From Nymphaea colorata (lineage: Eukaryota; Streptophyta; Magnoliopsida; Nymphaeales; Nymphaeaceae): a stretch of DNA of 64,000 bases. A program made the position numbers and the translations under genes. Below, piece after piece: positions 3,101-64,000 of the stretch (position 1 is the first letter of the stretch; each line of letters starts with the position of its first letter). Under the pieces are notes generated by a model. That model was not told the origin of the DNA, did not search any database, and saw nothing but the letters and a program-made list of their open reading frames with translations. Location of the stretch: positions 36,757,115-36,821,114 of the forward strand of contig NC_045138.2 of assembly GCF_008831285.2 (NCBI RefSeq), written 5' to 3'.

Positions 3101-6048
3101 TTGTATGTTCTTACCAACTACAAAGAAATGCAAGTAGACAATATTCGCTTAGACACCACACCCGATGAGAAAATGGCTGATTGCGCTACAAATAACATTG
3201 TTGCATCAGTTAAGTAGCTCGTTGAACGTCAAGAATCAAACTTCCATTGGAACCACTGATCCTTAGCCTTTTCTGCCTTTTATTAGTAGCAAGAGATATG
3301 ACTTGAAAGTTGAAGTTTGCTTATAATGTCTTGTATCATTATGCTATCACCTGGGTTTAGGCTGTTGAGCAGGTGCTTTTCTGCGTTAATCATCATTAGG
3401 TTTAATGATGTTGGTATTTGAAAATTTCTTTTGCATAAATTGTCTTTTTTTTTTGTGCTTGCACTTGTGTATATTCATGCATGTGCTACTAAGATGAATT
3501 ATTGGGAGACTTTTCTTTGCCGTTGCTTGTGCCAACTGAAAAAGGGAAACTTTTGGCCCTTGTTTGAATAGATAAATATAGTGGAGTACTTGCATTAATC
3601 TTTCCAAGTTTTGCCTCTCCTCCAACAATCGAGCCAGGCCCAAAATCTATTACTGCTGAACCACATTTACAAGAAAATGCATGACACTGATTATGTTATT
3701 TTTCGTTCTTTAGAGAAAAATCAAGTTGACTATATTTTCATGATTAATGAGTTCCATTATTATGTTCCACTGATGAATATAAAACAAGCATAGTGCAATT
3801 AAAGAGATGATTTGCAGTTTGATTTTTTCATTTACTACTTGTGAGTTGTGACTTGTATCGTATGCTTATGGTAAAATATTGAGAATAGATTAAGCTAAAC
3901 ATAACAGAAAGAGTTGGCACTTTTATTGGTGTCTTCTTAATGACTTTAATATGTCAATTACAGCTGGCAGATGCCAAGGATGTAATGAACGCTGTTAAAG
4001 ACATCAAGGGAGTGCAACTGCCTGTTCTTACACCAAATATGAAAGTTAGTTTATTTTAATTCTTTTATTACACCTTTCTGTTCAGATCATTATAATCTCA
4101 ACTTTCAGAATCCGGGATGAATCATGCTGAAATGCAGGGTTTTGAGGCTGCCATTGCAGCTGGTGCAAAGGAAGTTGCCATTTTTGCATCAGCATCTGAA
4201 TCATTTTCCAAGTCAAATATTAATTGCAGCATTGAGGAGAGCCTGTCTCGATATCGTGAGGTTGCTTCTGCTGCAAGAAGACTCTCAGTTCCTATCAGAG
4301 GGTATGCCAGAGTTGTGCTAGATAATTAATAATTTAATATTTAAGCTCCTTATTTAGAATTTGCAGACAGATCGTTTTTTTTGAACTATAATCTGAAGCA
4401 TGGATCAAGGGCTGCACCACTTGTGGCTTTCTTTTTATCCTAAGAAATTGTTTGTGTTTCAACGTGACAGATATGTATCTTGTGTGGTTGGGTGCCCTGT
4501 TCAAGGGTATGTCCCTCCTTCAAATGTAGCATATGTTGCAAAGGAGCTTTATGATATGGGCTGCTTTGAGATCTCTCTTGGTGATACTGTCGGTGTTGGT
4601 ACTCCTGGTATGCTCTCATGCTGAATATCTTTAAGATTAACTCTCTCTTTGCATGGTGACATATGTAGGTCCGTACCAGTAGACATGATCGATGCCTTCC
4701 TATTCCTTTTCTGCCTACAAGCAAACATGGTTAACTTTTCCACGTAGACTATGGGTTCTTTCTTTTCAATATTATTTTTACAATTGACATTGTCCACATT
4801 TAGTTTTATCGGTTTACTTTACTAGTTTATCTTTGCATTCTCTTCCATCTACAAGTGCATCTAGGCAACCCTGTCTATCCCTTTGGATTGGGTATGGGAA
4901 ACTGATGATCTTAAGCTTCCTATTAACTGTGACTAGTTTATCCTTGTGTTATATTCCATACAAAAGCAGGTTTAGGCGAACCTGTTCACGCATGGGCTTG
5001 TATATGTCATTATGATCTCAAGCTTCCTCAGCAATGCAGTGTCGAGCAAGTGTCTCATTTATCATTCCCTTGGTTTAGAAGATTCCATGCGATAATGAGT
5101 TGCCTGAGTTTGAAGGAACCATGTAGCTTCCATTCCATTTTGGGTTGTTGGCTATTAGCTGAATTTAAAACTAATTGGTGTCCTGCAAAATGGTTGGGAT
5201 ATTGCACCGTTTATGCTGGTTTCTTTTCCCTTCTTTTTTTACTTTGTTTGGAAAGTCAAGCCATTTGATGGTTCACTGGTTAAGAGCCATATTTATCTCT
5301 GCGTTCTATTTTCATGGATTTGATAGAGACTTGCACAGGGTCCTTCCTCCTTACATGCTGTACTGTTTCTTAATGTGGCCAATCCGGTTGAGCTGCCAAA
5401 AAATGCACTTGCATGTACACCTCTATGCAATACAAGTTGGTCCACAAGAAACACAAATTCAAAGTTATCGATGTCCATTTCTTTTGGGCTCTTGGACTCT
5501 TTATTTTGGCTGACCATGAGCTGAATCCGTAGTATCAGACATCTAGATAATCTTGTGGGGTAATAATTGCATATTGATTTCCTTTGTTGGTCTCAGGTAC
5601 TGTAATTCCAATGTTGGAAGCTGTGATGGCTGTTGTTCCGGCAGAAAAACTTGCCGTCCATTTCCATGATACCTATGGTCAATCACTCTCTAATATCCTG
5701 GTGTCTCTCCAGGTACTGCATTGGGTTCTGTTTCTGGTAAATTTGTTAGTAATGCTTTTTTCTGTTTCATTTTCACTCATCAGTCTTTCCTTTAACCAGA
5801 TGGGAATCAGCACTGTGGATTCATCTGTTGCTGGGCTTGGGGGTTGCCCATATGCTAAGGGCGCTTCTGGTAATGTGGCTACTGAAGACGTTGTATATCT
5901 GTTGAATGGGCTTGGGATAAGGACTAACGTGGACTTGGGTAAGCTGATGGCTGCTGGAGATTTCATCTGCAAGCACCTGGGCCGTCAATCTGGATCCAAG
6001 ACCGCCATTGCTTTGAGCAGGCTCACATGCGATGCCTCTAAGATTTGA
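122..6048 (+). CDS. HMGCL: Hydroxymethylglutaryl-CoA lyase, 5'-partial, seven exons in window
   Basis: Cleaves HMG-CoA to acetyl-CoA and acetoacetate, the last step of leucine breakdown, normally in mitochondria. Exons: 122-320, 2630-2809, 3964-4044, 4138-4301, 4471-4607, 5597-5712, 5800-6048 (stop TGA 6046-6048). All junctions are GT-AG and phases close. Catalytic landmarks are visible: [12 protein letters not shown] at the barrel start (catalytic Arg-Asp), [14 protein letters not shown], the metal-binding His pair in [10 protein letters not shown], and the family signature [17 protein letters not shown] with the active-site Cys in the last exon. The first visible exon follows a ttactgcag acceptor. 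Its QTRDVFRR region resembles the variable leader before the lyase domain of plant enzymes, so one or more upstream exons probably lie outside the window; the ATG at 126 is internal or an alternative start. From it the protein is 373 aa. The protein ends ASKI. Exon 4 starts at the GGT codon at 4138 (GFEAA), not at an AG 29 bases upstream. Confidence 0.93.
321..2629 (+). other. HMGCL intron, 2.3 kb, with AT-rich dispersed repeats
   Basis: Phase-0 intron between the leader exon and the first lyase-domain exon. No gene seen inside. About 1060-1640 and 2040-2260 are very AT-rich, with A/T runs, a cattttt-ggcattttt core and repeated gtatcatacaat words. Similar stretches recur in the ECM29 introns, so this is probably decayed repeat sequence. 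Confidence 0.6.
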
Positions 6049-8459
6049 TGAGACAAAATTATTATATATCGGGATCATAAGCAGAAAATGAGTCTGCATT
6101 TAAGCATGTAAAAAATCTATAGGCATATGTATGCCTCATCCCTATGCAAGTGGGGTTAGGTTATATGAGGACGATGGTTATTGATCTTTGTGATCATATT
6201 ATGTATAACAGATGAATAAATTGAACAAAAAAACTGTGAGAACATTTTTAAGGCTATAAAATTCGTAAATGCAATAGGGTCAATTTCTTCGTTTGCTTTG
6301 CGTTAACTTCTTGTCTTATCGTGCATGATAGAACAAGGCCTCTTCAGTTATGGAATAAAACTTCGGAAGGTAAATAAGTTTGAGGAAGAATTTTCCTACT
6401 ATTTACCTTTGCTTTTGTTTTTGTTTTCCTGTTGACCCTTGCCGATGTTGATAAACCAATTGTGAGATGTTCCTGTGAAGGTAAGGAGAAAATATAAGAC
6501 AGGCATACTAAACGTTTAATGTTAATTGGAAAAGATTTATTTCGTCATACTTGATTCCTAAAGCATCAATAAATGGGTGCAATTGTGGAAAGAACGTGAA
6601 ACACTGTCTGGCAGTCAATCGGTCGTTCGTGGATTTCCGTACCCTGCATGTTCATCACTTCGAGCCTGCAATCTTGTTCACACTGATGCTATTACAAAAG
6701 TTGGAGATTCTGAGAACAAAAACTATAATTAGGCCCTTTCGTTTTTTTTTTTTAATATTAATATAAAAAATGAGGTGCAAGCGAGAAGCGAGCAAGATCT
6801 GTCTATCCAAGCGAGGAGTTGGTTTCAAGATTTCCAGAGCTCAAGGAGGCCAATAATTCAATAGTGGGGAGTGCATCTTATATAAAAAACTGGCAGGAGT
6901 CTCACTAGTACTGGCTTCTCAGGTAAAAGGAGTGCTAAGAAGCCTGCAGCACTAGTTCTTATGGGCAGTTGTCAAGTTTATTCTGTTAGTTAATCGTGGC
7001 AGTTGCCAACAGGAGCTTCCTCTCATTGGTAACATGTAGATTCAAAATTGAACCTCACAGCGGTACAAGCTCAAAGGTCAGGACCTTCGCCCTCAGAAGC
7101 CAAAGCACTCGTCAATTTGGGGTCGGACCACCCATATAACGCGAACAATTATGGGTGAGGCGTACCTCCTAGAAATTTTCAAGCCCTTTGAATGCTCGTT
7201 GCAGGTTCATAACTGAGGGGGCCGAAATGGAGTTCCTTACTGAAAAAATTGAAAGGCGTAGCAGCTTAAATTACTCTCGTTTGTTTGGTTTCTGTTACTC
7301 AATCGAACTAACAACAGATCGGATTCAGCGTGGTTTTTAGATAATGTCAGATAGGTTTAAATCCTGAGATCAGCCAGCTACTTTTCACATTTTAACACAG
7401 CTACTCTTTCCTTCTCAATCATAATCTGATGAGCGGTTTAAATGATCGGGGACGTTAGGATTAAGGGCGGACAATACCCAACAGCACTACAATATTCCGT
7501 CATCCTCGATAGGGTTTCAGGTCACCAATCACTTGGCACCCCATGTCCGTTCTCATGCATGAATGCTGGTTTTCTAAAATTTCGGAAGACAATGCCAAGT
7601 GTGTAGGCAGATCGTGTTTGGATTAAATTTAGGTACAACATCTGACTACTTGGAAATTTATCTAGTTGAATTTGCATTTAGATTACAAACACCAAATGGA
7701 ATTCTTATTTTTTGCATAAAACCTGATTCAGATATGCATCGAAGGCAGTCATTTGAAAGTTTTAAGAACTTGAGCGTGCTTTGTAAATTGTTCCTTTCCT
7801 CACAATGATCCACATTGACTTCTTCCTCGACGAAGGGTGGTAGCCGTCCAGGTGAAGATTCCGTTACGCTCAGGCCTCCTTCGGCCAGGGTGCTAGAGGA
7901 GACTCGACTTGGTCGTCCAAAAGTGCAGTTTACTGCCAATCGGAGTGTTGATGCCAGTAAAAATCACGTCGCTTGAAGTTTGCCCTAAAATCATTAATGC
8001 AGCATGACATGAACCGACACTAAGAGCACTAGTTTTCATAATTAAATTCATTCACAATCTTGCATTGATCTTACTCACACCAGTCATTTCAATTCGTCCA
8101 CATTTCCAGCCTGTAAACAAGCAAAACAAAATTCTGAGAGGCCCCTGATTCCCGTTCTCATCATGCACAAGGGGGCCAAAGGAGCACAGATGCCAAAAAA
8201 CCTTCTATCCGTGTCAATCATATGAACGTTGAACGTACTCTCTTGTTCATGTGTCTTGTTCTCGTCTCTCCACTCCACTTATCATCCGATCCGTCTAACT
8301 TCCTTCTTCCTCTTAGTCTTGGGATCCAAAACGCCGATTCGCAAGTCAATTCGAGTGACAAGATTGCTGATGCTTTCCCCTTCAACGTTTTTGTGCATGT
8401 TCGAAAAATAAAAGGGAAATCTGTAACACAGCAGGGGTATAAGAAAGCACATCCATTTG
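6049..8459. other. Convergent spacer between HMGCL and RPC4
   Basis: Holds the 3' UTRs of two genes facing each other. No ORF here has recognisable family sequence. A gtttggattaaatttaggta stretch at about 7616 resembles the edge of a small repeat, but no matching second end was found. Confidence 0.5.
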
Positions 8460-11400
8460 TTATGGGTGGTCGTCAAGGTTGAGACTGAACATGCTCTCAA
8501 TGTCTGGGGTCACGACGGCGCGTTTTGTGAGTTCGCCGAGATTGCAGAAGTGCTTCTCTTCAGTGTTGATCACGCACACGTCTTGCGCAAAAGAGCACTC
8601 TGGGCTAGATGAAACCTGCAACCACCAACACAAAAAGTCAGCTTTGAATGCACTCAGAACCACAAATGAATCTACACGTGCACTCTTGATGATGACAATG
8701 ACGCAGGAAATTGGGCAATAATAAACACGTTTCCGATGAACTTAAAGCAGGAAGCTGTTCTACAATCACGTCCTTGACGAAGGTAAGAACCAACGATAAT
8801 GTACTCAATCGAATCGAAGCTCCCGATCTCATATTGGAATGTGACACCGACTCGCCAAGTTAGCTGTGTTTTGGCCATGTTTCTGTTTAATCTGCGTGTA
8901 CACTTGTCCACACGGTTTGTAAATGAGACTCTCCACTACTCCATCAGGCTGTAAAGGTAGCAAAAAGTTTCCCAACACAAATTCGACTGAGTTGCTACTA
9001 GGAAATGAACATCATATATGGAGACATCTGCCACCACAGTTGGCAGGCAAGGGGGTTGCAAGGATATAAAAAGTGGCCGTAATCAACAAGATATCTGTGT
9101 GCTAGCTACTTTTAGCATGGATGGTTCAGTATATGTAAGTTTGTATACAACCACGTACATTAATCAACAAGATATCTGTGTGCTAGCTACTTTTAGCATG
9201 GATGGTTCAGTATATGTAAGTTTGTATACAACCACGTACATCTGCATGGTTCGGGATGTGAATGCACACGCAGGGTTCACGATATTTGGATGTTATGATC
9301 AACTTCTTTAGTCCTGACGTAGTGGTCAAATAAATGTCACATGAAATATTTTCACCATAGCTGATGGATCCAAAATACACTTAATAATACCACAAGCATA
9401 AACACATAAACATGGTTTCGCGACAAATCATTGAACGGACCATGTACGCAGAGGGTCCTTTCTAATTTTCATGCTGAAACAGATGCATATTGAGCCAAAG
9501 GGCCTGGGTCCTAATAGCATTAGTTAGAAGTTAATGTAAACACTGAGCCGCACTTCCTCCAGAAAGCGTCTTTCCTACCATAGTGATGTTTAATGAAGTA
9601 TGCCTAATTAACGCAGGCAAAACAAGAGTACCTTGACATTCAGACGAATTTAAGCAAATGAAACACAAGAAACACATGAAGAAGGCGCAACTTGCAGAGG
9701 AAAAAAAAAACTGGAAATCCTTCAGAATGTATTTCTGTGTGTGTGTGTGAGAAAGAGAGAGAGAGAGACAAACATCAAACAGAGCATCTCCAATTTTCAT
9801 TTTGATGGTGCCATTTTCGTATACCATCATTTTCCCCACAGAGCCTGCCTGTAGATCTTGTAATTTGCAAGCTATTTGTGACCTAGAACCGGGGTCAGCT
9901 TCTTCTTCTTTACCCACGGCAGTAGCAGATCGTTTGAGCAAAGGTAAACTCACGGGAAACTGAAACAGGAACATCTGTGGTTCTGCCTTGTCCTCCTGTA
10001 TGGTAAAAGTTTAGCCTGAAAATCGCATACACAGAAAAGCTAAAACATGACTATTGCCATGTAACACATCATGCAACTTAACCATCAAACCAAGCTCCAC
10101 AGCTGCCTTTAGAGATTCTTCATCAGAAAGATTTGATGCAGAGGCTTCTCCAAACTCCTTTTCATCAAGAAGTTCTAGCGTACATCAAGAAAAAATGTTA
10201 TATCATAAAAATCACTCCACAAAATAAATTAAGCATTTTTACCAACGAAAGCAACAAGACTGCTGAAAACGATAAACATACCAGGATCCCCAGAGTATGG
10301 CCGTCTCAAAGGAACGGAAATAGGATAATATGAATAATAGTTCTGCAGAGGAAACACAAATAATTACCATTTGTGTCCTTTCCATAAGAGAGTTCATAGA
10401 AAAGGTTTTATGATGCAAGACAGAAACTTTGTTTCAAAAGGAAAAGATGCCACTCACAAACGGTTCTTCATATTCATCTTCAACTGCTGAGTCTGTGGAT
10501 CCATTTCCATCTGCATGAAATGGCCATTGGATGAAAGATACCGTGAGCATACACAATACAACATATATATATGTGTGCGTGTGTCAAGAAAAGAAGAGAT
10601 GGAAGTTACACTACCTAAAGCAGAAGCTGATTGGATGGATGTGCTCCTTGCGCCAAATCTGATCTGCTGTGGCCTGGAGGAACCAGCTGATTGACCATAT
10701 CCAAATGCAACTTGCACTGGTGCAGCTGCCAAAAAAAAGAAATGAAAATGAGAAACAAGAATAATTGCACACTATACCTCCAAGCATATTTCTTGTGTCT
10801 TAATTGTGACCACATGCATATGCTCTCACTAAGACAAACTGAAAGGTCCACCAGAACAGTTTGTACAGAGGCTATAAGATCAACATAACATCACAGTTCA
10901 ACCAAAACAATCTTACAAAGCAGGATCTTAAGGTCACCACCCTCTGTGCAAACCGAAGCAAGTAAAGGCTCTGAAGAGTTGTTTACAGCCATGGGGTTTT
11001 AAGTTGCCAGAAATGAAACTAACTAACTACCAAGTGTCATGTCTCGGGCGCAGCTTCCACATGTTAGAAATGCATAAAAGAGAAAGGAAGTTAAGGTTCG
11101 CATATATTGGAATATAGGTTATGTTTTTTAAAGATAACTGAAAATGAGACCTAATGTTTGTAGGTACATTCACAAGGTCAACAGGTAATGACGACACCAG
11201 ATGAATGCTTCCGAACAAAATTAGCAGGCCCTGACACCCCGTAGGTTGTACACTTCCAAATTCCAATACAATAACTTAGATCTCGATCATGTATTGCACT
11301 ATCAACTTTGAAGTTCTGACGTCCACACCTTTTCCTCATTTCCCCTCTCATGTCACAAAAAACACATGCATGCACATATGCAGAAACACATGCCAGCGTA

Positions 11401-22400: not shown

Positions 22401-22715
22401 TGTCCATATGAAAGCTGATGGTGCCAAGAGGAATCAAACAAAAACCAATTTTGCATAAGAGTATCAGAGAGAAAGGAACAGCAGCGGCAAAAAAATGTAG
22501 CGGTATCATAAACAGGAAAACCCCTGTGCATGCAGCAAACGAACTCCAAACTGCTCGACTGTAGAAAAATTTACATTTTTGAGAAAAAAAAATGCCATCT
22601 CTAATGCAGTACATCATCCTCAGATTGAAAAGAAGGGGTAAAAAAAGCGGGGGAAAAGGGATTTGGTGTAGAAGAGAAGAAATAAGAAGAGGCGGTCAGG
22701 GATTCCCATGGCCGG

Positions 22716-22976
22716 CTACCTGTTATGCAAAGGATTAGAACCAGTGGGCGTCCTCCTTTTATCACCAACAAGAAGCCCATCTCCACCATCTCCTCTGTCA
22801 GAGCCGTCTCCACTCACAGCAGAAGCTGGACCGAAGTATGAAAAGGACCCAACTTTGAATCTTGTGAAGCTGGAACCAGAAGCCATGGAGTTGGAAGCCA
22901 GAGCGAGAAACGGACGCCCTGTCGATGATAGAACCAGGAAGAAAAGGCAACAAGCAAGTGGATATCTCAAGCCCAT
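22716..22976 (-). CDS. CLE-type secreted signalling peptide precursor
   Basis: An 86-aa single-exon precursor of an extracellular plant peptide hormone. CLE peptides are cut from the precursor, hydroxylated on Pro, and bind CLV1/BAM-type leucine-rich-repeat receptor kinases. Residues 1-27 form a signal peptide (MGLRYP, then the hydrophobic core LACCLFFLVLSS, then a small-residue stretch ending ALA). A low-complexity Ser/Gly/Asp region follows. At the extreme C-terminus is the 12-residue CLE motif RRTPTGSNPLHN (bases 22757-22722), preceded by DK and followed by one Arg and the stop. Gly6, Asn8, Pro9, Leu10, His11 and Asn12 match the consensus. Ser7 replaces the usual Pro, as in CLE20 and CLE40; Thr3 is unusual. 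I chose the ATG at 22976 for its strong context (agcATGG); an in-frame ATG 11 codons upstream has weak context. Which CLE subgroup it belongs to cannot be told from sequence alone. Confidence 0.85.
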   Translation of the reverse strand: MGLRYPLACCLFFLVLSSTGRPFLALASNSMASGSSFTRFKVGSFSYFGPASAVSGDGSDRGDGGDGLLVGDKRRTPTGSNPLHNR

Positions 22977-23407
22977 GCTTTCCTCTCTGGGCTGGAAATT
23001 GAAAAACATGAAAAAGGATCTTGTCCTGCTCACAAACCCCCAAAAACAGAAAGGAGCGAAGAAGCTTTGTAACGCCTAAGAGAAGGCTCCTTGTGCTTTT
23101 CTTGGAGCCCCTACTAAAACCAGAGGAAAGACTGCAATTTTGAACTCAGATCCCCATGAGAAGAAGTTGGTCTGTTTGCTTTCAATGGCTTTTAAATCTG
23201 TAAGGAACAAGACCGCCTGGGATTCTGGAACTTGTTCGGTCAATGGCTCTAAGGCACATGCAGTGGCGATAGAGAGAGTGAAATTCAATTTGCTGCAGCT
23301 GCTTTTGGAACCTTCTGAACCAGCGCCCATTTGACTTTTATCTGCAGATTCTACCACCACCTATGATGCCATGAGAAGAAAAAGAAACTCAGGATGAGGA
23401 AGATCGC

Positions 23408-23444: not shown

Positions 23445-26236
23445 CCCTGCGGCGTTAATGGGTAGACAGATGGATCCCAAGGAAGATAGTGGTCAATTTC
23501 AGACCCAGCTAAGCGGCAATCCTTTTATTGCCAAAACATATGGCATGTTAATATCGTTATTAGTGGCAAATTCACTTATAAATATTTTTTTTCCAAAGTC
23601 ATGTCAATGCTGGAGGGAGAGAGATGTAAGATGTTCCTATTTCATAACTACTAATTTGTTTATTCTTTTATTAGCAAGTTAGGTACATTTTTGCAAGATT
23701 ATATCCCATATTTACTATAAAGTAACTAATAATTATTATTTTAGCAGAGTTAGGTAAATTTTTGCAAAGATTATATCAAATTATTCCATACCATGCGTCG
23801 AAAGCTTAAAGGGCTGCTCATATTGACCACACAAATTATTACAGAATCAAACAAACGAAGGAAAACTGAGCAAGCTTACTATGTCGATGAGTTTAAATCA
23901 CAATAGTCAATATGAAGTAAAATGATTCATTAATTTGAGCCCCTAGGAGCAAACAGTGTCCGATAACAAGAATGCTGTGTTGTTAGGATCGTGTGTTTAT
24001 GTGGTGGGAGAATGCCCATTCAGCCGCCTCATAACTGTTCTCTTGACCTTGGAAAACGATTTTTGATGATCTTCAACATTTCACACATATAACCAAACAT
24101 GCTCTAAGAATTTCCTATAGTTTTAACTAGTTTCCCCTCAGAAAAAAATGCATAGTAGATGCCCTGGCTTACGAAGAAAAGTTCACCTAACTTCAGATGG
24201 AGGGTGATGATATTCTGCCTTCTTTTCTCTTGTCTTCATGGTTCAGGGCTGCTTCGACTTCGACTTGTGTAAGAGATTGACGCCCATGCGGATCGAACCA
24301 GTCTTCCGATCACTGCCCCATCTGCCTAAGGGAACAGTCATAATTATCCGCGTTTCTCGTTGCCACCAGTAATGTTATCAACGATGCAAAAGATTAATAA
24401 TCTACTTCATCACATCATGATCGACACATTCACGGGTGTCTGTTTTGGAGAAAAATTTTGGCATCTTCTATAATCTGAAAGCTATTAGACCCCCATGCAC
24501 ATTGAAGTGCCATTCGTCTCCTTAATATGAAAGTAGTACATAATTGGCCAAGACAAAATACAGATGGAGACAGGACCGCCCATAAACTAAAAATAAAAGA
24601 GGAGTCGTATCTGAAAAGTTAGCTTCTAACATCATTCTCACTACGAAACACATAAGAAAGCCGGAATCACATCATTCATATATATATATATATATATGTC
24701 AGAGATAATATGATTCAGCAGTTGTTTTTGCTCCTGGGACTGGCCCACCCCAAAAGTAATTCTCAAAAGTTACTGCGAGAAATTACCGGGCAAGGGCTTT
24801 GCTCACCTGACTGGAGATGGATCTGAAATTCCCAATCCATGACGTTCAAGTCGAAGTTGGTCAGGGCCGTGTTACCTAACCCTCCTGGATGCTGATAAGG
24901 GGCAAAAAATCTACTGCACCGAAATAAGATTTATGCTATGGTATGCGGTTGTTGATTTTGCATATAAAAAGTGAATAGTGCCCAATTGACCCTTAATTTG
25001 TCATTAATTAATCACGGCTAGAGAAAGAAATAGACCACAAAAAAAGAGAGAGGAATGAAATAATTCCACCGTTCCATTAATAATTTGGAATGAGTATATA
25101 TATAGTAGCAGGTTGGAACTTTGTGGCAGCGTGTCCATTTAAATAGATCAAAATAATACACACGCGCATATGTGTAGTTCTATTAACTTGCAGTTGCAGA
25201 TTATAAAACTGTGGAACTGGAATAACTTTTTCACCAAATCTACAGCGACGGGGAGATGCGTGCGATGAAGTTGCATTGCATGGTTTAAAAAAGTCCTTGT
25301 CTGGGCATCTTTGAAACAAGGGATTTAAGATCCAACTAACGTTTTCCCAAGCACCTTCACCTAACTTAGGAGGCACCCGAACACGCCTTTAAATACATGT
25401 AATGAAGGCAAAACAACAAGTGAACTATAAACAATGCCATGGAATTCTAATTTAATGGAAGCACCCAAGAAAAGCTCAGCATTTGTGTGCCATGGTAGCT
25501 AGTCTCCATTTTGGTGTTTGCTTCACCTGTATTTTAGATAAACATTAATAATATATTATTATTATTATTGGGAAAAAGAACTATAATGGAGAAAAGGGTG
25601 GGCATGGGTTGAGACAGGCACGGCCAGGTGGTGGTAAAAGGTTTGGTAGCATTGATTCAGGTCCCCCCCCCACTTTAATTGTGATTGTGGAAGAATTGCC
25701 AGTGAACAATTTTGCTATGAAATGATTGCCTCTTTCGTTTATTTCCTTTCTTTTTTCTTAATGTATACCTCAAAGAAAGAAAGAAAATGCTGTACAAAGC
25801 AGAGCATAGGCTGTTCCCTGACTCGTACACGCTATATAGGCGGACCAACTTCTTCAAGACCCATCTCATTTTGGTACCCTTTATTTCTTGCATCTTTTAT
25901 CATACCTATATATATATATATATATATTATATAATGACTACAGAAAGACACCTAACCATACATGCGTGTTTCTCTTTTAACTTCATTGTATAACTAAAGG
26001 CAATTAAATAGGACATGAGAAAGTTCGACGGTACAACATCCTTTCATACTCTGAAATCCGGTGAAAAAGGTCGATATTGGAGAAGGGTCTGACTCAGTAA
26101 TTTAAAACTCGGTGAAATGACATCCTAGTGAAAGGATGCCGACCTGATCGATCTTCCAACGCCGATAAAGAGTCGAGAAAAGAATTTGGTGCGTTAGAAA
26201 ATCCACCAATCTCAATATGTTACGCAGTTAAGCATA

Positions 26237-26750: not shown

Positions 26751-26794
<44 letters not shown>

Positions 26795-26920
26795 GTAGCA
26801 CATGACCGATCACACCTTATCATATATATATATATATATATAGTAGCACATGACCGATCACACCTTATCATATATATATATATATATATATAGTAGCACA
26901 TGACCGATCACACCTTATCA
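26751..26920. repeat. CT/TA microsatellite with three-copy 30-bp minisatellite
   Basis: A (CT)n then (TA)n run leads into three identical copies of a 30-base unit beginning tagtagcacatgaccgatca (26793-26822, 26841-26870, 26891-26920), separated by (TA)n spacers of about 20 bases. Confidence 0.95.
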
Positions 26921-27662: not shown

Positions 27663-27668
27663 CGGAAG

Positions 27669-27742
27669 TTCCGTTGCCGGGATTTGAACCCGGGTCGCCT
27701 GGGTGAAAGCCAGATATCCTAACCGGACTAGACGACAACGGA
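27669..27742 (-). tRNA. trnE-UUC: tRNA-Glu (UUC)
   Basis: Reading the minus strand, the acceptor arms tccgttg and caacgga pair fully with discriminator A. The anticodon loop is CTTTCAC (anticodon TTC) in the stem TCTGG/CCAGG, and the T arm is cccggGTTCAAATcccgg. It is 74 nt with no intron. The internal B box GGTTCAAATCC and an A-box-like segment (GTCTAGTCCGGTTAGG) support Pol III transcription. Seven T follow within about 12 bases of the 3' end (plus-strand A run 27656-27662), a standard Pol III terminator. CCA is not encoded, as expected for a nuclear gene. Confidence 0.97.
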
Positions 27743-30682: not shown

Positions 30683-30973
30683 GAACCCTGTTGAACTCAG
30701 TTCTGACATGGGCTTTCATAGACCAAATTAAAATTGGATCCAGTACTGGTTCGATGTAACGGTCCCTACCCGAACACTTGAAAGGAACCTGCGAACCCTA
30801 GTTTCCCAGTGATGAACGTGCCCACAAGCTAAACCCCAGTTGTGTAGTGTCAGCACGTGGTAAGGCACGCTAAAACCCTACCTGTGGCCTGAAGTCGACT
30901 GTGAACCATAAAACCTCGTTCTCTCTCCGCAACTTCTGCACACGCACGACGCCTGACCGGAGAGGAAAGAGCA

Positions 30974-33900
30974 ATGGCGAAGCGTCTCATTCCAAACCTG
31001 AACAGGGTTCTGGTGGAAAAGATTCTGCCTCCCTCCAAAACCAACGCCGGCATTCTGCTCCCAGAGAAGACCACCAGAGTAAAGAGCCTCAATCCGTCTC
31101 CTTCGTCGTTTCTGCTTTGTTGGTGTTGCTTGTTTCTCTTGGAAGTGACTCTCTGATCTTGGTTATTTTGATCGTTGTCCATGTTTCTTTTGCCCACTTG
31201 ATGGTAGCGGCGATTCTTTCATGTTCAGCCATCTCTCTCTTCTTTGTTTACTCTCTCTTGATTCAAATTCTCTTGTCTCTCGCTCTCTAACTAATTAGAT
31301 TTATCCCGTTATGGTCGACCTACTTCCCCTTCCCGGAGAGTTGTTTCCTTTGGCAATTGGAGTAGAAACTTTTTTGCGCAGTTTCATATGGCTACTATTC
31401 TTGAGCTATTGCAATGGTTCTCTACTTGTTATCAGTTTCCAATCTCTTTTATGGCTTCTGTAGACTATGCTTTCAGGATACAAAAATGGTGATCTTTTTT
31501 GCGTATTTGGTATGTTTGTTCGTTGGTAAATCCTGAACTTCTATGTTTGGTGTTTTCAGGGGATTTAGCGTCCTCACGGAAGGACGGTTTCTTATGTTGC
31601 GGCTGTGAATTTTCTGGTTGCATTTATTTTTGCCTTTTTCTATAGTTCGGAAAATGTTATGTCATGATTGATTTTCTTCCTATTTGATTGATTTAGTTGA
31701 ACTCGGGGAGAGTGGTCGCTGTTGGTCCAGGTGCTCGTGATAGAGACGGCAATGTTATTCCTGTTTCTGTGAAGGACGGGGACACTGTGTTGTTGCCTGA
31801 ATACGGGGGGACTGAAGTAAAGCTCGGCGATAAAGAGTAAGCCCTTTCAGCGGTTCTCCTTACTGCATCTTATTTCAGTTCTTTCATGGTTTTTTTTTTG
31901 GGTATTCTCCATGCTTTTGTTGCTTCCGAAGATTAAGCGATTTAAATAATTTAAAAGCTGAAAGATACTTGTTGCTTATTTTGAGTCTTTGACCACCTTC
32001 TCTACTTTCCTGCCCGTGAGTTGCTTAAACGTTAGAACTGTTTGGTTCATTTCATGCTTTGATTTGTCCAAGAGAAAAATTGCTGGCAGAAATCTGTGCA
32101 TATATAGGAGGTTATAGATAACCTTTATAAATATTAATGTTCTCATCATCGTTGATAATACAGACACCACTTGCAAGTTTCCGATTGGATTGCCAGCCAT
32201 CAGTAACTTCGTCCATATATCTTTTTAAAATCTCAGGATTTCCATGCTTTGTTTTTGTTCATTTTAGTCCTTCGTCGTATTTGATGTAGGTCATACTTTC
32301 TATTCTAGGTCTTGGCAGGGGATCTATTTCCCTTTAGTGTGATATAGGTTATGGAGATACTGAACTAGACAAATTTAAACCTACTAGAGAAATTTGGAAT
32401 ATGAAACTGTTGCTAACTCACCATTAGGCAGGTCTATGTGGGCTAAAGATTTTATTTTTAGAATCAGCTAAGTTGTGATTTTTGTTGATTTCTCACTAGT
32501 TTATCTAATCTGACATGTATGTTCCCCATGGAGGAACAAGTTGACATTCTCTTATTTGCCAAAAGCCTTGAAAAACCACTTTGTCTTCTTTTTTATCCAT
32601 TTCATATTTTCTATTCTATTTCCCTTTAGTGTGATATAGGTTATGGAGATACCTGAACTAAACAAATTTAAACCTGCTAGAGAAATTTGGACTATGAAAC
32701 TGTTACTAACTCACCATTAGGCAGGTCTATGCGGGGTAAAACTTTTATTTTTAGAGTCAGCTAAGTTGTGATTTGTGTTGATTTTGGACTAGTTTATCTG
32801 ATCTGGCAGGTATGTTCCCCATGGAGGAACAAGTTGACATTCTCTTATTTGCCAAAAGCCTTGAAAAACCACTTTGTCTTCTTTCTTTCCCATTTTTTGG
32901 ATTCATCGAGTCAGCCGTTTCGTCTTTCGTCTTTGCTAGCCTAGTTTTGCTTTCTAGACAAGCATTACATGTTTGTTGATTCTGCTGAACAAGTCCAACC
33001 TATAACACATTTTTGCTTGGCGTTTCTTTTGAGTATGATTACTGAAGACCTATCTTTCATTTTTTGTACACAAAATTATGCACAATGAAGATAAGAGGAT
33101 ACAAACATTACCTCAACCAATTAGTTGCCATCGTGATTTATAAGTACAATCTGGCGATAAATGGATTGGTTCACTTACAATTTGGATGATTAGCTTACAA
33201 GGAACACAATATGGCGATAAATGGACTGGTTCACTTACAATTTGGATGATTAGCTTACAAGGAATTCTTTCTTAGACCAGTTTAATCTTTTAGAAAAGTT
33301 AGCCTATAAGCTTCTTTTTTTCCTGTCCGCAGCCTCTATGCTCAGTTTTCATGCTGACGTCTATTAAATTATTAATACACCATCGTGGTCTACTCGGTCA
33401 TTTGAACCACTATTTGTTGATTGAAACCAAATTCACTACCGGCCTTGATCTCATTGGGCTGCTAAAGGATACAAACATGCAGTTATAAAATGATGTCGTT
33501 TCAAGAAGTTACAATACGTTTTTGGTGGTCTAAGAACTAAAAACTTGAGGTATATTTCCTGATCAGATGTAATATCTAATTTTCTTTTCATACTCTAGCT
33601 TTGGCATGAAGCTCTTATACTTTAGCCCCTATTGAAATGCTGATCTTGCGATGTGCTTCTAATCTGCAAACATTGATTTTTGGGCCTTGACTGTGCTATA
33701 TGTAAATAATATCTCCAATGGATGTTATATATGTGAAAGACTACAGGCGGATTGATTGTGGAATCAACACGTCTGGTCTTTTCTCCCTTTGTAACTTCTA
33801 TTGTTAGCTAAGAATCCATATCTTCACCGTGGGCCTTAGTCACTAGAAATATGTTAAGGGGTTACAAACTTATAGGTTCTGTATCTATTAAATATCAGCT

Positions 33901-35828: not shown

Positions 35829-37338
35829 TTAGGAACCTTGTAACGCGCCTTGCAATGCCTCTTGACCTTCCCCGCTCTCATCTGCAATAGAAAGTCCAAA
35901 ATTACAGCTTGACAACCACAACAGCAGCAGGGAATGAAAACGCTTATTGCAATCATTGAGAACGTTTACAGCATAAGGAAGGACAACAACAATGTCATTT
36001 TGGCCACTACGACGAGGAGAAAGAGTGTGGAAAGCAATCAATGCATTGCACGTTTTACAGGAGAAATTCCAACAAACATCATATACTTTTGACAAAAACC
36101 GGTCGAGCACACTAGTATGTCAAACTACTTTAAAGGCCAGCTCTCTTCATTGATTTGAACTAGCAAAAATTAATTATTTTTGTATTTACAGCAAGGAATA
36201 TAAAGCTAAAATGACAATTCGTTGATGTTGGTCGCAGTGGAAAACTGATTATTTTGAATTCCAAGCAAGATCATGGTACCCAACCAGAATTCGGACATAC
36301 GCGTCTTATTCTTGAGAATCTCCTAAACCGCCATAAACCTTCCATGTGCAAGTATGGCTTGATAACACCTAAAAATGTGAAAAAGAAAGGTCATCGTATA
36401 TATTGAACTCAACATAACAAGAAATAGTTGCTCAGCGGTGGTAGGACGTGAAACGAGGATGGAGATCTGCTAGGCTACGAGCCTGGCCAGTTTTGGGCTG
36501 TTAACACTTGACCTGTATCAGGCTATACCAACCTGGACGTGAACAGAAAGTTCGAAATCCTACGGCAAATTGTTTAGGAATTTTTTCAGTCATATCAATT
36601 ATCAACGCCTCCAATCCAATCCATCCAACAAAGAGAGCTACAATTAAGAAACCAAGGGGAACCCCACAGGGCACAACCCGCATCACTCTCGCAACTTTTT
36701 TTTTTTATCAAAGGAGCAATTTATGAATTGTAATAACTAGGAAAGGTACCGTGGGCGTCGACATCTCCACCTTCTTGCTTGTCCGGCTTTGCATCTTGTC
36801 CTTGAGTTGGCTGAAAAAACACGCGGATGAATGAGAACATAAGAAGCTTATCGGGAAACAAATCAAACATATACAAAATCACATTCCCAGTTTCTTTTAC
36901 CTCATTGTCTTGCATTATTGAAGCGATCAACCTCGATGCCTCATCGTCCGCCTGAAACCCAAACATGCATTATTCAAGTCAATGGCAGAAATTTCAAAAC
37001 CGCTTGCACGAATGCAGATCGAGCTATCGAATTCATTTTCCCGACAGATAAACAACAGAAAGGAAACCACCAATCTGAAACTTTGAAATAATGCGTAAGA
37101 ATGCTTGTGACAACCCCACAATCATTGAACGACCGCCAATCATCGGAAAGGAAGAGTCTCGACTCCCAACATGACCAAGAACCCAGAACTCTGATATTTT
37201 GTTTCGTTGCACCAACAAGAAAAGAAATGATACCAAATTATAGGAATGGAGACAAAGCGGTTCGGTAATTACGCAGAAAGAACGCGAGCGCACGACGGGG
37301 AAAAGACAGAGAAGACGTCGGAACTCGGCCTCATCCAT
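35829..37338 (-). CDS. Small 76-aa protein, four short exons, family unknown
   Basis: Exons 5' to 3': 37338-37273 (22 codons), 36951-36901 (17 codons), 36810-36750, 35881-35829 (stop TAA). All introns are GT-AG and phases close; the last junction restores an Asp codon (G|AT). The protein starts MDEAEFRRLLCLFPVVRSRS followed by FC, then ADDEASRLIASIMQDNE. It ends in a hydrophilic Gln/Gly/Asp-rich tail (PTQGQDAKPDKQEGGDVDAH, ending ALQGALQGS). There is no signal peptide or membrane segment. The N-terminal block looks conserved (an amphipathic EFRRLL helix then LFPVVRSR), and I believe similar short plant proteins exist, but I cannot name the family or function. Some relatives may be longer, in which case this could be a shortened C-terminus or one splice form. 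An out-of-frame ATG 37 bases upstream opens a 14-codon ORF overlapping the start. Confidence 0.62.
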
Positions 37339-37375
37339 TGCTTGCACGAATAGGAAGTTCTTGAAGCGTTGGCAT
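37331..37375 (-). promoter_or_regulatory. Upstream ORF overlapping the start of the 76-aa protein
   Basis: ATG at 37375-37373 begins MPTLQELPIRASNG. It stops at a TGA that overlaps the main start region (ATGGATGA). If it is in the transcript, it would be expected to limit initiation at the main ATG. The transcription start is unknown. Confidence 0.4.
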
Positions 37376-38531: not shown

Positions 38532-62764
<24,233 letters not shown>

Positions 62765-64000
62765 CTGAAAATGAAAAGATATACAATGTGAAGCTATAGA
62801 CAACCAGGTAAAAAATCAACTTCAAGAGCACATTTAATAGACATAGGTTTGTACAAACTTGACATCAGAAATTTCTTCTAAACTGAAACTGGATAAATAA
62901 GAAAGGTAAATACATTTCCACCACGAAGCATATCACATAGAAACTTTTTACCATGCAATAAGTGATAATGCCTGTGTAACTCCACTGGATGTCTAAGAAG
63001 ATTAATGTTAAAGAAAGGAAACACAGAGAATTTTTCTTAGAATATATGATACATCATTTGAGCTTAGGAGAAGAAACAAGTTCCCAAAACCCATGAATGA
63101 TGTACGCTGTTCCATGTAAGACCTTGTTTTGGATAGCAAAAGAATAAAAATTATTAATATGGAGATGCTTTTCTGATACTGTTGACCCCAACCAACCAAA
63201 GAAATCAGTGAGATGCACTAAAAGTCTGCACTTTGGATATAAACTGTTTATCACAAATGCTGAAGAGAATATTGTGAACATGATCCATTAGCAAGGCAAG
63301 TGTAATGGGTAAAAATACCACGGACATGGGATAAAACTTGTGGAAGAGCATAAATGAATGGAAAAGTGGTAAAATTCTTTTTTTCCAGCTGCATTCTTTT
63401 CAAAGTAGCAAGAAATCTTTATTGGAAAGATTTAGTAACCACACTTGCAAACTGCAAATTATCCAATATGTGCTTCCAAGTTCAACGGGGGTATAAACTA
63501 CAAACATTAATTCTTAAAGAAGAGAAGGATAATCTTGAGAAAAATTTAACTTTTTGAAAAAGTTTGCATGGGATCAAACTGATATATTGATTGTTTATGA
63601 TGGGCGGACAGACATCCAAAGGCATCCACTATCTAACTTTATTGCCCTTGCATATGATGTATCAATGGTGGGTAAAAACACCATTGAGGCATGTTATAGT
63701 ACCTGTGAAAGAGCAGAAATGGAATGAAAAGTAGGAAGTTTTTTTTTTTTTAGTTGCATTCCTTTCAATGTAGCAAGAAACCCTTATTGGAAAGAATTTA
63801 GCAACCTCACTTGCATATTGCAAATTACCTAAACATGTGCCTCCGGGTTCAGAGAGCCTATGAACATCAGTTCTTAAAGATGAGAAGAATGATGTTGAAA
63901 AGAAAAAAACTTTGAAAGAAGTTTGCATGGGATTGAACTGATCTATCAATGATTGAAAGAAACCTAGACTAGAGAGAATTACAAGTTCCCAAAGTGGGAG
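62765..64000 (-). other. ECM29 upstream intron, continues past the edge
   Basis: No further ECM29 exon was found on the minus strand up to the right edge. The next upstream exon must end in phase 1. The stretch contains a tandem segmental duplication at about 63304-63958. Confidence 0.55.
63304..63958. repeat. About 363-bp-period imperfect tandem duplication
   Basis: Copy 1 at about 63304-63590 and copy 2 at about 63667-63958 share in order tgggtaaaaa-acca, ttgcattc-tttcaa-gtagc, tattggaaaga and gtttgcatgggat. Copies differ at many bases and by small indels, so the duplication is old. Confidence 0.85.

Follow-up and report, generated by a model that had tools for sequence, protein, structure and literature searches.

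Positions 22716-22976 of the window (the whole 64,000-nt stretch of Nymphaea colorata DNA that was analysed) are open for translation on both strands, which raises the question of which strand carries a gene and what the product of that gene would be. The original prediction placed there a minus-strand ORF of 86 aa that ends in RRTPTGSNPLHN, a dodecapeptide of the CLE type, plus one Arg, and its coordinates, strand and length proved exact. The longer plus-strand ORF that it described over the same bases is likewise present (22708-23079, 123 aa).

Layout of the minus-strand gene

The minus-strand ORF encodes the precursor MGLRYPLACCLFFLVLSSTGRPFLALASNSMASGSSFTRFKVGSFSYFGPASAVSGDGSDRGDGGDGLLVGDKRRTPTGSNPLHNR. 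Its parts and the features around it are listed below, each with its evidence; the paralogue is a second gene of the same genome, on contig C9.

22716..22976, minus strand: CLE precursor coding sequence, 86 aa plus stop; homology to the C9 paralogue opens at this ATG and continues for 8 nt beyond the stop
22896..22976, minus strand: signal-peptide-like N-terminus MGLRYPLACCLFFLVLSSTGRPFLALA, residues 1-27; weight matrix, with ALASN retained in the paralogue
22758..22895, minus strand: variable pro-region, residues 28-73; when aligned with the paralogue, it has diverged further than the motif
22722..22757, minus strand: CLE dodecapeptide, residues 74-85; matrix score, and seven codons that differ from the paralogue, six of them silently
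22749..22751, minus strand: codon of Thr3, ACG; the C9 paralogue has Val (GTG), two nucleotides apart
22719..22721, minus strand: C-terminal Arg; also retained in the paralogue (codon CGG), trimming expected from the literature
23007..23009, minus strand: upstream in-frame ATG, probably not the start; weak context, unconserved 11-codon extension
22708..23079, plus strand: overlapping ORF, 123 aa, judged spurious; sub-cutoff Pfam match, lower codon score, stop in the paralogue
23239..23343, minus strand: conserved non-coding block of 105 nt, 263-367 nt upstream of the ATG; 78% identity to the upstream region of the paralogue

Initiation at the ATG at 23009 would lengthen the precursor to 97 aa. 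That ATG has T at both -3 and +4, a weak context, while 22976 has a strong one with A at -3 and G at +4; moreover, the 11 added codons are not conserved in the paralogue and have a negative codon score. The start at 22976 is favoured, as the homology to the paralogue begins there. The resulting protein has the build of the CLE family, that is, a small precursor with a variable middle and a C-terminal motif followed by a short basic tail, and its size, motif and one-residue tail fit the statistics printed for 2156 CLE candidates (PMC7552357). In a Pfam search, no family was matched by the frame as either 86 or 97 aa.

The motif was scored on a matrix of 71 distinct dodecapeptides (84 in total) from published tables, which comprise 16 Arabidopsis peptides (the full list of one paper, not the whole family), 34 from tomato and 34 from Populus. 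Some table rows and some duplicates are omitted, Populus 13-mers were shortened to 12 residues, and one Populus gene number is incomplete; a radish table and a table of nematode mimics were left out of the matrix. RRTPTGSNPLHN scored 32.2, inside the 20.5 to 42.2 range of the tabulated peptides (17 of the 71 score at or below it), yet the second-best 12-mer across the six frames of the window reached 9.6 and the maximum among 60 simulated windows (Markov-1, with matched first-order base transitions) was 17.5. The motif thus lies far above chance, and a chance origin is very unlikely. The residues shared by most CLE members (R1, G6, N/D8, P9, H11 and N/H12) are all found in the 12 C-terminal residues before the Arg.

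A signal peptide had also been proposed, and the N-terminus agrees with it: on a simple eukaryotic weight matrix, the CLE ORF read from its first ATG ranks first among the 162 ATG-started ORFs of 50-200 aa in the window (score 8.8), its hydropathy is 2.52, and the ALASN stretch is kept in the paralogue. Since 14 of the 162 ORFs pass the joint signal-peptide cut, this evidence taken alone is modest. Cleavage is predicted by the matrix after residue 20; by the A-x-A rule, it would presumably fall after ALA27 instead.

The sister gene on C9 and the choice of strand

The precursor was searched against the window's own genome (407.77 Mb, 783 contigs). One other match was found, at C9:6269734-6269988 (62% identity over residues 1-86), which ends in RRVPTGSNPLHNR and carries the dodecapeptide RRVPTGSNPLHN. 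The two genes have start and stop in common and are similar in signal peptide and motif, and their nucleotide similarity runs from ATG 22976 to 8 nt beyond the stop, with 71% identity in the coding region. For the CLE frame, dN and dS were 0.26 and 0.78 (NG86) or 0.24 and 0.90 (YN00); the differences at codon positions 1, 2 and 3 numbered 21, 20 and 32 in 85 codons, a third-position excess (P value=0.04; one-sided binomial test). The dN/dS of this frame, at 0.33, is the lowest among all six frames, with 24 silent codon differences. Six of the seven codon differences within the dodecapeptide are silent, and the sole amino-acid change is at residue 3; the residue directly before the dodecapeptide is Lys in the window gene and Glu in the sister. 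On this basis, which consists of one paralogue plus printed dodecapeptides, the comparison indicates that the minus frame is constrained and the motif conserved under selection. Conservation of the 12 C-terminal residues in a relative, on which the original prediction depended, was seen in this paralogue (11 of 12 residues kept).

In the frame of the plus-strand ORF, the same comparison gives a dN/dS of 0.54 and counts 11 silent differences; the sister has one stop there. With 85 codons, the dN/dS margin of the CLE frame over the plus frame appears moderate, and the gene is assigned to the minus strand, as predicted, because of the CLE motif, whose changes in the sister are mostly silent, and of the stop that breaks the plus frame. 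Codon usage agrees weakly: on a codon score trained on pieces of ECM29-like and HMG-CoA-lyase-like reading frames picked by eye, the CLE frame scores +0.063 per codon, within the range of 15 left-out exon pieces from neighbour genes (-0.026 to 0.165), whereas the full plus ORF scores -0.049, outside this range. Where it covers the CLE gene, the plus ORF scores -0.022, barely within the range, and the codon test is a weak one.

The overlap itself is real but expected. When synonymous codons were drawn at random for a fixed CLE protein, 14.5% of the recodings left the plus frame open, as against at most 0.07% for the other two antisense frames; for a fixed plus protein, 31% of the recodings left the minus frame open, and a loose CLE motif arose in 1%. 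The way in which the two frames relate is thus enough to account for the overlap, and the plus ORF is best taken as a by-product of the CLE gene. That the plus ORF is instead the real gene and the CLE frame a coincidence is scarcely credible: it is the longer of the two at 123 aa, shows a weak match to Pfam DUF7028 (E 0.014) and is in part similar to the sister locus (52% over 96 aa), but the match, at 15.8 bits, falls under the cut-off of 27, a resemblance of this kind is shown by any frame over conserved DNA, and its codon score (-0.049 versus +0.063), the internal stop and higher dN/dS (0.54 versus 0.33) of the homologous frame in the paralogue, and its openness in 14.5% of recodings of the CLE protein all speak against it.

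The similarity between the minus-strand gene and its sister extends to the conserved upstream block, whose identity (78%) exceeds that of the coding regions (71%); the block may be a shared regulatory element. An upstream ORF of 84 codons, whose ATG at 23330 is inside the block, was considered and rejected as a conserved peptide: its ATG and first codons are kept, yet the paralogue stops after MGAG. A scan for TATA(A/T)A over 1.1 kb upstream found none, and a weak candidate, TATTTATAAG, is located at about 23580; if transcription starts near 23550, several upstream ATGs fall in a long 5′ leader.

Within 260 kb of C9, the CLE gene, the upstream block and an exon at 37269-37342 are matched with order and orientation kept. 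This exon reads MDEAEFRRLLCLFPVVRSR, and its ORF, for which no Pfam family was found, shares 79% identity over 29 aa with a C9 stretch that is located 36 kb from the sister CLE gene in the same orientation. Two further short C9 matches are not collinear: 14065-14191 matches the far end of these 260 kb at 75.8%, and 22 aa from 63728-63829 match as well. The arrangement is suggestive of a duplicated block that harbours the window gene and its sister. A whole-genome duplication with a Ks peak at about 0.9 is reported for Nymphaea colorata in PMC7015852, and the dS of the pair (0.78-0.90) is close to that printed value.

Other genes of the window lie across 4096-10010, 30905-31153 and 38535-57447. 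They include HMG-CoA lyase exons (plus strand; Pfam HMGL-like for 5578-6045), an exon of RNA polymerase III RPC4 (minus strand), a Cpn10-like first exon (plus strand; under the Pfam cut-off) and ECM29-like exons (minus strand; recognised by eye, with Pfam matches only under the cut-off). A tRNA-Glu gene with anticodon TTC is located at 27668-27742 on the minus strand, a 243-nt tandem duplication (92%) lies at 32360-32895, and 26772-26920 holds an AT-rich array of ~50-nt units.

Relation to known CLE peptides

The closest peptides in the published tables are from tomato (PMC9670457): SlCLE32 (RRVPTGSNPLHN), identical to the dodecapeptide of the C9 sister, and SlCLE48 (RRIPTGSNPLHN), each of which matches the window gene at 11 of 12 residues. 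In this comparison of dodecapeptides, the window gene has Thr3 where SlCLE32 and SlCLE48 have Val or Ile. SlCLE32 is described in the same paper as more highly expressed in shoots and raised under drought. Populus PtCLE44 (KRKVPTGSNPLHN, printed as (K)RKVPTGSNPLHN; PMC4776436) shares 10 of 12 residues, among them Ser7 and the NPLHN end, and differs by Lys2 and Val3; its listed length is 74. Arabidopsis CLE20 (RKVKTGSNPLHN; PMC5538625) has the TGSNPLHN core and Ser7 in common with the window gene (9 of 12 identical), but carries Lys2, Val3 and Lys4 and hence no Pro4. The PTGS core is common to the window gene and Arabidopsis CLE40 (RQVPTGSDPLHH; PMC5538625, PMC13082318), yet, unlike the printed CLE40, the window gene has an NPLHN end and a one-residue tail. 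Ser7 and the NPLHN end are thus found together, and by motif the gene seems better placed in the GSNPLHN type (SlCLE32/48, PtCLE44, CLE20). An identity with CLE40 is not favoured: the end is not DPLHH, and a separate locus of the genome (L047) encodes RQVPTGSDPLHH.

This locus was among those from a genome-wide search with a CLE pattern, which returned 22 matches versus two for a backward-pattern control. By eye, from position 1, the upstream frame and the nearness of a stop, 15 of the 22 were classed as CLE-like (window gene and C9 sister included) and seven as chance, a number above the control count of two; the pattern was exact, and the count is confined to the classes that fit it, which excludes, for instance, TDIF types and peptides with K/R/Q at position 10. 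Besides L047, the CLE-like loci include RRVRRGSDPIHN, RRVPNGPDPIHN and a third GSNPLHN-Arg locus, RFIPTGSNPLHN (L029). Three others, with DPLHH/NPLHH motifs, lie within ~32 kb (L041-L043; G000:C1:15106386-15138560) and have the appearance of a tandem cluster, which may be of CLV3 type; their tails end in GSP(R/K)KPQTP, and one of them has Ser for Arg at position 1. Pattern matches in viral contigs (131) and in bacterial or archaeal contigs (591) yielded no confirmed CLE relative.

The window gene is almost certainly a nuclear plant CLE gene whose 86-aa pre-propeptide would be secreted and release its dodecapeptide for CLV1/BAM-type receptors. We infer the steps from what is usual in the CLE family, and the biological role likewise: the signal peptide would be removed from the pre-propeptide upon secretion, N-terminal proteolysis of the propeptide would yield RRTPTGSNPLHN as an extracellular ligand, Pro4 would be hydroxylated, and the trailing Arg would be trimmed by a SOL1-type carboxypeptidase, as is described for the C-terminal Arg in CLE processing (PMC13082318). 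The ligand would then be perceived by leucine-rich-repeat receptor kinases of the CLV1/BAM type.

Two remarks on residue 7 in the original prediction held: Ser7 is common to CLE20 and CLE40 in the printed peptide list (PMC5538625), and a second hydroxyproline site is absent from RRTPTGSNPLHN, since with Ser at this residue the second site for hydroxylation and arabinosylation is lost. Published evidence on the importance of residue 7 for receptor binding appears mixed. In the TDIF-TDR work, the side chains of Hyp4, S5 and Hyp7 lack significant contacts and their replacement by alanine has little effect, but for CLV3 that paper cites an enhancement of binding and function by arabinosylated Hyp7 (PMC5383425); for CLE9 with Pro in place of both Hyp, binding to BAM1 is unimpaired according to the authors, the printed values being ~5 nM and 100 nM (PMC8847575). 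Subtilases are reported to cut inside CLE40 at RQVPT-G-SDPLHH, and the peptide is protected when the proline close by is hydroxylated (PMC13082318). By analogy, RRTPTGSNPLHN may contain an internal subtilase-sensitive site, and, because the PTGS core is the same, Hyp4 may protect it.

Residue 3 and the fate of the duplicated pair

Thr3 had been called rare, and the counts agree. It occurs in none of the 71 tabulated peptides (position 3 is V in 44, S in 12, I in eight, A in six and P in one), none of 18 radish rows and none of the 14 other CLE-like loci of the same genome (12 V, two I); two Globodera nematode mimics, RVTPGGPDPLHN and RVTPGVPDRQHR, carry it in the table of PMC8618561. In the open-licence literature (image tables and supplements being outside reach), no paper was found with the core TPTGSNPLHN or TPTGSNPL, and likewise none for other Thr3 forms. 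A single base error does not explain the residue, because ACG and GTG differ at two nucleotides.

Position 3 belongs to the N-terminal part of CLE peptides that, by analogy with studied ligands, helps to anchor them on receptors. The change V3P in CLE9 shifts the printed BAM1 binding value from 100 to 3000 nM (PMC8847575), and in TDIF, binding to TDR falls significantly when H1, E2 or V3 is replaced by alanine (PMC5383425). As this position helps anchoring, an altered receptor selectivity of the Thr3 peptide is plausible; Thr3 is of more interest than Ser7, since position 3 matters more clearly in the TDR and BAM1 work.

The window gene is probably an ordinary, functional plant CLE-type peptide gene, and the alternatives concern what Thr3 does in it. 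One is that the gene functions and that Thr3 changes its choice of receptor relative to the Val3 sister, a functional divergence after duplication. Residue 3 is the sole amino-acid difference between the two dodecapeptides, and it contributes to anchoring in the TDR and BAM1 reports; yet Ser or Ala is common there (18 of the 71 tabulated peptides), so the site tolerates small residues, and such a change would be possible but on the doubtful side. The allied proposal, in which one copy came by Thr3 after a whole-genome duplication and would yield a natural ligand variant with shifted receptor selectivity, is rated slightly lower still. A less probable alternative, which we consider unlikely, is a decaying copy in which Thr3 reflects relaxed constraint after duplication while the C9 copy holds the function. 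Thr3 is indeed unlike all 14 other CLE-like loci of the genome, and its codon carries two nucleotide differences from the sister, but the frame, start, signal-peptide-like N-terminus, stop and Arg tail are all intact, the remaining six codon differences in the dodecapeptide are silent, and dN/dS over the pair is 0.33, a pairwise ratio that does not assign changes to one copy.

The probably functional CLE gene of the window is an added member of a well-known family, with Thr3 as one unusual residue; by sequence comparison the genome holds it as a duplicated pair, the other copy of which keeps Val3. Short secreted-peptide genes are described as often overlooked in annotation (PMC9670457), and a CLE gene under a longer opposite-strand ORF is worth placing on its correct strand. 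The GSNPLHN type, found here in the water lily Nymphaea colorata, is present in an early-diverging lineage of flowering plants, and paralogues whose dodecapeptides differ at residue 3 alone constitute a natural single-residue test of CLE receptor specificity.
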